Of a stretch of 64,000 nt of DNA, positions 28,124 through 31,476 are shown one piece after another; the first letter of the stretch is position 1, and every line of letters starts with the position of its first letter. The stretch covers positions 868,001 to 932,000 of the forward strand of contig NC_015856.1 of NCBI RefSeq assembly GCF_000221045.1, written 5' to 3'. Origin of the DNA: Collimonas fungivorans Ter331 (GTDB lineage Bacteria > Pseudomonadota > Gammaproteobacteria > Burkholderiales > Burkholderiaceae_D). A program made the position numbers and the translations under genes. The notes beneath the pieces are model-generated. The model ran no database searches, was not told the DNA's origin, and saw only the letters and a list, made by a program, of their open reading frames with translations.

Positions 28124-29152
28124 ATGCATTCTCTCTCCGATTACGATTTCGAGCTGCCTCCTGAGCTGATCGCGCAAACCCCGCTGTCCGAGCGCAGCGC
28201 CTCGCGCCTGCTGCACTTAGACGGCGATCGCCTGATCGACCGCCAATTTACCGACATCGTCGACCAGCTCGCCGCTGGCGACCTGCTGGTGTTCAACGAC
28301 ACACGGGTGCTCAAGGCGCGCTTCTTCGGCGTCAAGGAAACCGGCGGCAAGGTCGAGGTGCTGGTCGAGCGCGTGGTCGACAACCGCACCGTGCATGCTC
28401 AGGTGCGCGCCTCGAAATCGCCGCCGGCCGGCGCCCGGATCTGCCTGGCCGAAGCGTTCGATGTGGTGGTGGGCGAGCGCGTCGGCGAGTTTTATACGCT
28501 GGTGTTCCCGGCCGATGTATTCGAGCTGATCGAGGCCCACGGCCGTTTGCCGTTGCCGCCGTATATCGAACACGATGCCGACGCCTTCGATGAAACCCGT
28601 TATCAAACCGTCTACGCCAAACACGCCGGCGCGGTGGCGGCGCCGACCGCCGGCCTGCATTTCGACCAGGCTTTGCTGGAGCGCCTGCAGCAGAAGGGCA
28701 TCGGTTTTGCCTATGTCACGCTGCATGTCGGCGCCGGCACCTTCCAGCCGGTGCGCAGCGAGAACCTGGCGGAACACAAAATGCACAGCGAGTGGTACAC
28801 CATCACCGAAGCCACGGTGGAGGCGGTGCGCGCCACCAAGGCTGCGGGCGGCAAGGTGATCGCGGTCGGCACCACCAGCTTGCGGGCGCTGGAATCGGCT
28901 TCGCAGTCCGGCGTTTTGCAGGCGGGCAGCGCCGATACCGCCTTGTTCATCACTCCCGGCTATGTTTTCAAGACCGTGGAGCGCCTGATCACCAACTTCC
29001 ATTTGCCGAAATCGACCTTGCTGATGCTGGTCTCGGCTTTTGCCGGCTACGACTGCATCCGCGCCGCCTACGCCCACGCCATCGCGCAGCGTTATCGCTT
29101 TTTCAGTTACGGCGATGCGATGCTTTTGTCATTGCAGAGAGCCAGTCAATAA
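28124..29152 (+). CDS. queA: S-adenosylmethionine:tRNA ribosyltransferase-isomerase
   Basis: Transfers and isomerises the ribosyl group of SAM onto preQ1-tRNA, making epoxyqueuosine at wobble position 34. The 342 residues include [56 protein letters not shown] and [16 protein letters not shown], all QueA hallmarks. In most proteobacteria queA is followed directly by tgt, yajC, secD and secF. Here a perfect terminator starts at its own stop codon (29151-29186) and a foreign gene separates it from tgt. Confidence 0.97.
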
Positions 29153-29186
29153 ACGTAAAGCGGATCTTTACGTTTATTTTAATTTT
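29151..29186 (+). terminator. queA rho-independent terminator
   Basis: AAACGTAAAG (29151-29160) and CTTTACGTTT (29166-29175) form a perfect ten-base stem with loop CGGAT, followed by the T-rich ATTTTAATTTT. It begins at the queA stop codon and directly precedes the promoter of the inserted HTH-GHKL-STAS gene. Confidence 0.88.
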
Positions 29187-29187
29187 C

Positions 29188-29217
29188 TTGACAATTAATT
29201 GTCCTATGAATGACAAT
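29188..29217 (+). promoter_or_regulatory. Promoter of the HTH-GHKL-STAS gene
   Basis: A perfect -35 TTGACA (29188-29193) is followed after 18 bases by GACAAT (29212-29217), four of six consensus -10 bases. The predicted start of transcription is at about 29223-29225, on the ATG itself (29223). Both elements overlap GACAATT repeats. No ribosome-binding site is visible upstream of the ATG, so a leaderless mRNA is predicted. Confidence 0.6.
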
Positions 29218-29253
29218 TTAGTATGGATAAATTAAAAATAAGGACAATTTGTC
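29190..29253. repeat. GACAATT operator-like repeat cluster
   Basis: Three related elements: the perfect 14-base palindrome GACAATTAATTGTC (29190-29203), a half-site GACAATT (29212-29218), and GACAATTTGTC (29243-29253), a palindrome around one central base that lies inside the coding region. A weaker GGACAAAATG follows at about 29271. Together they cover the -35, -10 and first codons, fitting autoregulation by the gene's own HTH domain. Confidence 0.65.
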
Positions 29254-30230
29254 AACTTGTTGATGCCAGTGGACAAAATGTTGCAGCTCGTCTGGCTGAA
29301 AAGGAAGGTATTTCAAGACAAGCTGCTAGCACCTGGCTTGCTAAGGCAAAAGAGGCGGGGATAATTTCATCCGAAGGAACCGGTCGGGGAATACGCTATG
29401 CTCTTGTTGCGCAGGATTATGCCTGGAAGGATTACCTGCGCGAGGGTCTATCGGAAGACGTTGTTTGGCGTGAACTGTGCGCGCCCATGTTGCGGCAGTT
29501 GCCAGGCAATGTGCGCGGGATATGGCAACACGCTATGACGGAGATGATTAACAATGCCGTCGATCATTCCAATTCCGAGCAAGTTAAGGTTGGAATGAAA
29601 ATGAACGCATTATTTACAGAAGGATTCGTCTCTGATACCGGTGAGGGTATCTTTTTAAAAATTCAAAAGGCGCTGGATCTTTACGATACGCGTGAAGCGA
29701 TACTTGAACTGGCCAAGGGGAAATTCACTACTGACCCCGCCAATCACTCTGGCGAAGGTATTTTCTTTTCGTCCAAGATGATGGACCACTACGAAATCCG
29801 TTCTGGTAAATTGCACTTTGACCATGATAGCGAACAACCTGATTTGTTGATCGAGCATGACGTGGACGTGAGCGGTACGCTGGTTTCCATGCGCTTGGAT
29901 AATGACAGCGCGAGAACGGCGAAAGAGGTGTTTGATCGTTTTGCATTGCCGGAAGAATTTTCATTTGCGAAAACGACCGTGCCGGTACGGCTTGCTCAAC
30001 ACGAAGGGGAAACCTTGGTTTCACGTTCTCAGGCCAAACGGCTGACACGGCGCTTCGAGAGATTCCAGAGTGTGATATTGGACTTCTCGGGCGTCGACGA
30101 GATCGGACAGGCGTTTGCCGATGAGGTATTTCGAGTATTTCAAAATGCTCATCCAGAGATCAGCATGATACCGTTCAAAGCTTCAGCGTCAATTACCGCG
30201 ATGATTAAACGCGTTCAGAATCCTACGTGA
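29223..30230 (+). CDS. HTH - GHKL ATPase - STAS-like (DUF4325) protein, function unknown
   Basis: A 335-residue protein of three parts. Residues 5-62 look like a winged helix-turn-helix (VAARLAEKEGISRQAASTWLAKAKE then a GTGRGIRYAL wing). Residues about 85-225 are a GHKL ATP-binding domain: N-box E107-x3-N111-x3-H115 (EMINNAVDH), G1 D138-TGEG, G2 HSGEGIFFSSK (175-185). Residues about 260-330 fit the DUF4325 STAS-like domain (VILDFSGVDEIGQAFADEVFRVF). There is no phospho-acceptor histidine region of a classical histidine kinase and no membrane segment. This combines an anti-sigma-type kinase fold, a STAS partner and a DNA-binding domain in one chain. It is more AT-rich than its neighbours and sits between queA and tgt. 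Role unknown. Confidence 0.85.
   Translation: MDKLKIRTICQLVDASGQNVAARLAEKEGISRQAASTWLAKAKEAGIISSEGTGRGIRYALVAQDYAWKDYLREGLSEDVVWRELCAPMLRQLPGNVRGIWQHAMTEMINNAVDHSNSEQVKVGMKMNALFTEGFVSDTGEGIFLKIQKALDLYDTREAILELAKGKFTTDPANHSGEGIFFSSKMMDHYEIRSGKLHFDHDSEQPDLLIEHDVDVSGTLVSMRLDNDSARTAKEVFDRFALPEEFSFAKTTVPVRLAQHEGETLVSRSQAKRLTRRFERFQSVILDFSGVDEIGQAFADEVFRVFQNAHPEISMIPFKASASITAMIKRVQNPT

Positions 30231-30258: not shown

Positions 30259-31476
<1,218 letters not shown>

Follow-up and report, generated by a model that had tools for sequence, protein, structure and literature searches.

Here, I describe a gene of Collimonas fungivorans Ter331 whose product is best read as a new variant of the GHKL/STAS switch, one in which the kinase/STAS pair has been internalised and is no longer run by a classical phosphoserine. 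The gene lies in the window, as the whole stretch of 64,000 nucleotides analysed is called below. Sequence and models together show that a winged helix-turn-helix (wHTH), a SpoIIAB-like part and a VapS-family part are joined in one chain with its ATP boxes kept; they likewise show the loss of the acceptor serine, phased repeats over the promoter in most relatives and a recent insertion. On balance, I lean towards the view that the gene is mobile and encodes, on its own, an ATP switch that regulates itself, derives from GHKL-kinase/STAS partner-switching modules and works by the mechanism proposed further on.

The open reading frame 29223-30230 (plus strand) encodes a single chain of 335 residues, and the gene is real and intact. 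Its parts are the following:

29223..30230, plus strand: coding sequence of the HTH-GHKL-DUF4325 single chain, 335 aa (open reading frame, Pfam, AlphaFold2 model)
29223..29408, plus strand: winged HTH, residues 1-62 (model; weak ArsR-type profile matches)
29454..29900, plus strand: GHKL ATP-binding domain, residues 78-226, nearest solved fold SpoIIAB (profile, model, fold search)
29541..29567, plus strand: N-box E107, N111 and H115 (conserved in 55/56, 56/56 and 56/56 distinct relatives)
29970..30218, plus strand: DUF4325 STAS-like domain, residues 250-332 (Pfam, full-length and isolated-domain models, fold search)
30021..30041, plus strand: start of the signature helix, SRSQAKR, residues 267-273 (S267 Ser/Thr in 55/56, R268 in 56/56, R273 in 53/56)
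30108..30110, plus strand: Q296, column of the VapS acceptor S48 (alignment; Gln in 52/56)

A sequence-only reading had proposed that HTH, GHKL and STAS-like DUF4325 domains are combined in one polypeptide, and this is borne out. Pfam DUF4325 (PF14213) matches residues 270-321 (E 5.2e-15, 55.3 bits, above the cut-off of 23) and HATPase_c_2 matches residues 93-195 with E 4.5e-6 and 27.1 bits, slightly below its cut-off of 27.4, while by profile the HTH is faint (ArsR-type NCBIfam models at 2.1e-5 and 1.3e-4, far below cut-offs). The AlphaFold2 model (26 sequences; mean pLDDT 88.5, pTM 0.83) gives a winged helix at residues 3-61 (helices 3-15, 20-28 and 32-44, strands 48-51 and 58-61), as had been supposed for the N-terminal 60 or so residues, a GHKL domain at 78-226 and a STAS-like domain at 250-332, and leaves no space for a STAS domain between HTH and GHKL. 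The top PDB match in Foldseek is SpoIIAB (1til_E, E 2.6e-5; 1tid_A, TM-score by target 0.80), with RsbV/RsbW entries also matching the full model at lower rank; a viral fold library returned no convincing full-length match. For the C-terminal domain modelled in isolation (pLDDT 92.9) the top match is RsbS, with probability 0.98 but E 0.058, above several prestin STAS domains and some unrelated, non-STAS folds, and CapS/VapS entries are absent among the 50 matches listed. The RsbS match, weak alone, agrees with the Pfam assignment, and the STAS-like character claimed for this region stands. The three ATP-binding boxes of the sequence-only reading are kept as well: in addition to the N-box, D138, G140, G142 and G177 are each present in 56/56 distinct relatives and G179 in 55/56. 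This set of 56 sequences (61 before duplicate removal) includes L092, in which STAS, GHKL and DUF4325 form one chain without an HTH head; it keeps SSF serines at the acceptor columns and is another kinase/STAS fusion. At L055 the same body carries an XRE-type HTH_31 head (5.3e-7), a single case in which the DNA-binding head is retained, by sequence, though its type changes.

DUF4325, still listed by Pfam as of unknown function, is by sequence the family to which VapS, STAS partner of the VapK kinase, belongs, for the DUF4325 protein of L076 matches PDB 9z7o chain A (Escherichia VapS) at E 4.6e-15. The parts of the single chain are thus no longer unmatched, and the earlier statement that the system could not be matched to a described one has been overtaken: CapKS and VapKSC were published in June 2026 (EMBO J, PMC13373217) as GHKL-kinase/STAS switches of immune loci. 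The acceptor serine of VapS is given there as S48 (PMC13373217), and alignment to the VapS chain places it on Q296 of the window protein if an inferred offset of 18 is applied, the 9z7o chain having 134 residues in the crystal and 116 in the published numbering. A297 had been taken as the acceptor column by eye, from the SpoIIAA motif; the chain alignment points to Q296 instead, and both columns are reported. The Q296 column holds Gln in 52/56 and Ser in 2/56 distinct sequences, and the column after it Ala or Gly in 54/56 and Ser in 2/56. Among the held-out relatives, GQ[A/G]F occurs in 27/27, and a simple pattern search printed SRSQ for 23/27, without settling the other four. The short DUF4325 proteins have SSF, TQSF or TSAF at the acceptor columns, and the single chains have SRSQAKR in common. 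Since the published acceptor column is mostly Gln and its neighbour mostly Ala or Gly, a classical phosphorylation switch is not supported. Of the self-contained transcription switch driven by ATP or phosphorylation that had been suggested, a role in transcription is likely, the evidence concerning its own promoter only, and the classical phosphorylation finds no support. A fused form that is widespread and lacks the acceptor serine makes a natural test case for a GHKL/STAS switch operating without classical phosphotransfer.

The best surviving alternative, in my view an unlikely one, is that the protein is a true serine kinase with a new site, whether S267 or S269 in its own DUF4325 helix or a site on an unlinked protein of host or phage, and that phosphorylation releases it from DNA, as with CapS. 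The high conservation of both residues (S267 Ser/Thr as above, S269 Ser in 52/56) and the closeness of the GHKL domain to the kinase SpoIIAB speak for it, yet the two serines begin a helix beside the invariant R268 and may be structural.

DUF4325 is present in 41/300 genomes of the order, own genome counted, and the loci read belong for the most part to two classes: one consists of single chains, roughly 335-374 aa long, the other of short proteins of some 100-125 aa, part of which have a longer open frame. A GHKL protein, recognised by motifs, is encoded directly upstream in 9/10 of the short-class loci viewed (L088 being the exception); three of these upstream proteins match Pfam HATPase at 0.0038, 2.4e-4 and 3.2e-6, that is, from marginally to clearly, and the last of them also matches STAS_2 at 2.4e-8. 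L076 and L081 have the full GHKL-DUF4325-PIN order with a PIN-type gene last, and the one tested, that of L076, matches Pfam PIN at 2.4e-8. At L077, L079, L083 and L093 a GHKL gene, an SSF-type DUF4325 gene and a third gene of 154-202 aa stand in a row; the third product has a hydrophobic N-terminal part, and the row may be a switch of two genes whose output is a membrane protein. A similar row appears in a table of a Francisella temperate phage, where a 112-aa DUF4325 protein is listed after a 293-aa protein, and an "ATPase, DUF4325" gene is named among those that passed from bacteria to the fungus Rhizophagus irregularis (PMC5982333). Searches of open-access papers (preprints not covered) listed none that, by title or abstract start, has the fused family as its subject, which is not proof of absence. 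L143 (2459-4633) holds a full-length copy and, about 900 bases on, a second, truncated DUF4325 end of near-identical sequence, with a small zinc-finger-like ORF between the two ends; the arrangement suggests an insertion with duplication of the 3' end. No common partner is apparent by eye for the SRSQ-type DUF4325 stretches that stand alone (L143-L148). Shorter relatives, L020 (L036:2801-3496, 231 aa) and L021 (L037:6696-7376, 226 aa), match over the HTH and part of the GHKL domain, without DUF4325; they come from two genomes in a single genus and have their neighbours in common.

Upstream of the window gene and within its first codons lie several DNA elements:

29188..29217, plus strand: promoter-like TTGACA-N18-GACAAT (10/12 matches; 5 sites in the region against 1.7 expected by shuffling)
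29189..29218, plus strand: direct repeats TGACAATT, starting at 29189 and 29211, 22 bp apart, over the promoter (repeat search, spacing test)
29190..29203, no strand: palindrome GACAATTAATTGTC (position computed)
29151..29175, no strand: inverted repeat AAACGTAAAG-N5-CTTTACGTTT (pairs like it also lie upstream of L008 and L012)
29243..29253, no strand: palindromic box GACAATTTGTC within the first codons (repeat search)

The inverted repeat is followed by T-rich DNA, and the stretch 29148-29178 scores as a possible queA terminator, so that it may double as terminator and operator. Between 29205 and 29223 only 5 nt separate the end of the -10-like hexamer from the ATG, and no visible Shine-Dalgarno sequence precedes the start; the transcript may thus be leaderless. 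Searched genome-wide, both operator patterns recovered this gene; the perfect repeat pair occurs only here, the direct-repeat pattern has an additional 2-mismatch match at G000:C1:2173246 (minus strand), and the inverted-repeat pattern is less telling, since a control read backwards gave 5 matches per strand. Neither search found a second strong operator in the own genome, which makes the protein itself more likely to be the effector than a regulator of distant genes.

In most relatives, direct repeats spaced exactly 21 or 22 bp, or two helical turns, lie over the gene's own promoter. The fixed consensus CTTTACRWTT gave 63 matches against 32.5 expected (shuffle maximum 47) in 39 loci already inspected, and 27 against 10.8 (shuffle maximum 20) in 14 loci whose upstream DNA had not been inspected before. 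As this consensus misses clades with other units, a motif-free spacing test was adopted, which takes any 9-mer recurring with at most one mismatch within 100 nt upstream. Among 51 relatives, own gene included, a spacing of 21 bp is found in 16, of 22 bp in 20 and of either in 29, the test detecting no such repeat in the other 22; 23 bp is found in none and 44 bp in 9, and shuffles give 0.5-0.7 for each spacing. Held-out loci, fetched later, have 21/22-bp repeats in 25/27 cases (0.67 on average in shuffles, 4 at most). In the controls, which are other upstream regions from the fetched loci, 21-bp repeats occur in 7/258 and 22-bp repeats in 6/258, and this set may include regions shared with a divergent relative; the Fisher p of 3e-17 for relatives against controls is too small, because the loci are related and their counts not independent. 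No 21/22-bp repeat was seen in nine two-gene VapK-type loci, nor in the single XRE-headed case, L055. Start codons of the relatives were chosen by rule or by eye, and some repeats (L001, L002, L051) look like chance or low-complexity matches. Left out of the 51-locus set were L010 (start unsure), L053 (contig edge), L092 (other architecture), L011 (a second fetch of the own copy), L020 and L021 (match without DUF4325), L005, L006 and L086 (partial), and, as near-duplicates, L044, L061, L063, L075, L078, L089 and L094; the held-out set omits L113 (own), L134 and L137 (both partial).

The repeat units vary by clade, examples being TTTACAAT, GTTGACAA, TTGTCGAT, TCCTTTAAGAAA and AGTTATAA, and over 25 loci repeat similarity shows a partial correlation of 0.19 with HTH similarity and of 0.01 with the rest of the protein (plain correlation 0.30, reached by 0/1000 permutations), suggesting modestly that the repeat sequence tracks the HTH. 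At L122, L123, L126 and L127, the TCCTTTAAGAAA units are direct repeats with an inverted copy adjoining the start codon, and in the window, too, boxes of both orientations stand together. Promoter geometry may partly fix the spacing, for 21-22 bp also fits the distance from -35 to -10, and a resemblance to TTGACA or TACAAT is seen in many units; against this as the full explanation speak the copies at twice the distance, the low control rate and the differences between the units of different clades. As a signature, this unexpected regulatory DNA is well supported, its role as operator being putative, and the protein probably reads the repeat ladder to control itself. The exactness of the two-turn ladder makes the DNA-binding prediction testable.

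The gene is a recent, horizontally acquired insertion in this genome:

29124..30348, no strand: inserted segment between queA and tgt, about 1.2 kb, of lower GC (sister-genome comparison; left edge by eye)

The neighbours are, in order, OxyR-like, RecG, QueA, the gene itself, Tgt, YajC, SecD, SecF and PurB. The queA-tgt gap measures 18-31 nt in 14/14 other genomes of the genus, all of which lack the gene at this site, against 1196 nt here, taking the ATG at 30349 as the tgt start, and the GC content of the insert is 42-51% against 52-66% around it (300-base windows). Among the eight neighbours tested there is no sigma factor or phosphatase, as had been stated. Beside the gene, between the housekeeping QueA and Tgt, neither a PIN toxin or immune operon nor any defence gene or shared partner was recognised; no PADLOC match rose above E 0.0026, and the surroundings are not a recognisable prophage.

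It is the sole copy, and the sole DUF4325 match, in the 5.19-Mb own genome. No relative was found in the 14 other genomes of the genus; counting the own genome, relatives occur in 4/60 near genomes, 13/294 of the family (two of the 13 matches being short and weak) and 6/398 of the phylum, and a profile search of the class found 36/369 genomes at 1e-20, own included and some partial. Six loci, two of them partial, lie in named genomes, mostly Clostridia. An alignment-guided scan recovered 23 IMG/VR contigs with relatives up to 62% identical, an earlier scan of viral contigs with a single protein as query having found none. These contigs share no common neighbour by eye; of ten flanking proteins taken from seven of them, nine match PHROGs, and for six a phage role is named, namely terminase (twice), tape measure, tail, tail fibre and integrase. 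A search of 50,697 phage records with three queries of the family gave no match, while a terminase used as control, from one of the same contigs, matched 100 of the records; 72,556 plasmids, searched with two queries, gave no match either. The gene thus occurs in predicted proviruses and, at this sensitivity, not in sequenced phage isolates. Such a setting may point to one more class of regulators of phage defence or stress.

Such patchiness, together with the lack of a second strong operator and with partial DUF4325 stretches elsewhere (L145 looks like a remnant), would suit a plain autorepressor whose GHKL and STAS-like parts merely set the oligomer state, that is, a selfish or neutral cargo gene with no effector role. 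I regard this as improbable: ATP motifs and operator-like DNA are intact in the window and the architecture is retained in relatives only 35-44% identical, in Clostridia and others, which indicates selection on function. The least probable of the readings weighed, drawn by analogy, is a BstA-like prophage defence protein whose repeats are self-recognition DNA sparing the carrying element on replication, for although it would fit a single gene in predicted proviruses with repeats that lie near the start codon (at a median of 19 nt upstream over 54 loci; in the window also inside the gene) and repeat variants that accompany HTH variants, much as BstA's own aba element overlaps its gene start and is cognate per variant (PMC8585504), no relative is found among phage isolates and the window copy lies outside any recognisable prophage.

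For the preferred reading, an internalised ATP switch, the described systems provide an analogy. In CapKS, ssDNA activates CapK, and phosphorylation of a STAS serine by this kinase frees the repressor CapS from DNA; the authors support a scheme of this kind for VapKSC as well, with a toxin as the protein released, the effect of ssDNA on VapK being one that could not be tested there (PMC13373217). In the present case, the wHTH would bind the repeats as a head-to-tail series, one unit per two helical turns, and thereby repress its own promoter, while the fused STAS-like domain would dock on the GHKL domain, of which it would be a permanent partner and not a phosphorylation substrate, the ATP state replacing the phosphoserine. 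A stress or phage signal, by analogy with CapK perhaps ssDNA or phage, would alter ATP binding or turnover and with it docking and the oligomer; the protein would then leave DNA and its own synthesis would rise. In what is the weakest step, the freed protein would act on some target; a response to phage or to DNA damage, as with CapK/VapK, is the likeliest setting, and a phage or stress response is my leading guess for the output. A bolder extension would have an undescribed family of provirus-carried one-protein defence switches, uncoupled from the acceptor, in which the 21/22-bp ladder is both autorepression operator and self-recognition DNA titrating or resetting the protein at element replication; I hold this to be a long shot, if less so than either the cargo or the BstA-like explanation.

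To sum up the relation to known systems, the protein shares with SpoIIAB-SpoIIAA and RsbW-RsbV a SpoIIAB-type GHKL fold and, judging from the models, a C-terminal domain whose top match, weak alone, is RsbS; unlike those anti-sigma kinases, it has no sigma factor, separate antagonist or phosphatase among the eight neighbours, and the acceptor serine is absent. BstA resembles it as a lone prophage gene with an aba element of 63 bp, of which 29 bp lie upstream and 34 bp within the gene, cognate to each BstA variant (PMC8585504), as the candidate recognition DNA here overlaps the gene start and goes with the protein variant; this likeness is one of published description, and defence is here only hypothetical. 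With vapKSC it has in common a GHKL domain and a VapS-family STAS protein, here as a fused domain; it differs in being one chain, in having an HTH head (wHTH 3-61, GHKL from 78) instead of the kinase's N-terminal STAS, in the lack of an adjoining PIN toxin gene and in the replacement of the Ser/Thr acceptor by Gln (Q296). The main text of that paper names neither DUF4325 nor a fusion (PMC13373217). CapK is itself HTH-STAS-GHKL, with CapS as a separate STAS-wHTH protein and an immune operon downstream in 348/443 cases (PMC13373217); in contrast, the order here is HTH-GHKL-STAS-like, in one gene rather than two adjacent ones and with no immune operon alongside. Yet HTH, STAS and GHKL parts are found in both, and CapS represses its own promoter, an autoregulation that is predicted here as well.
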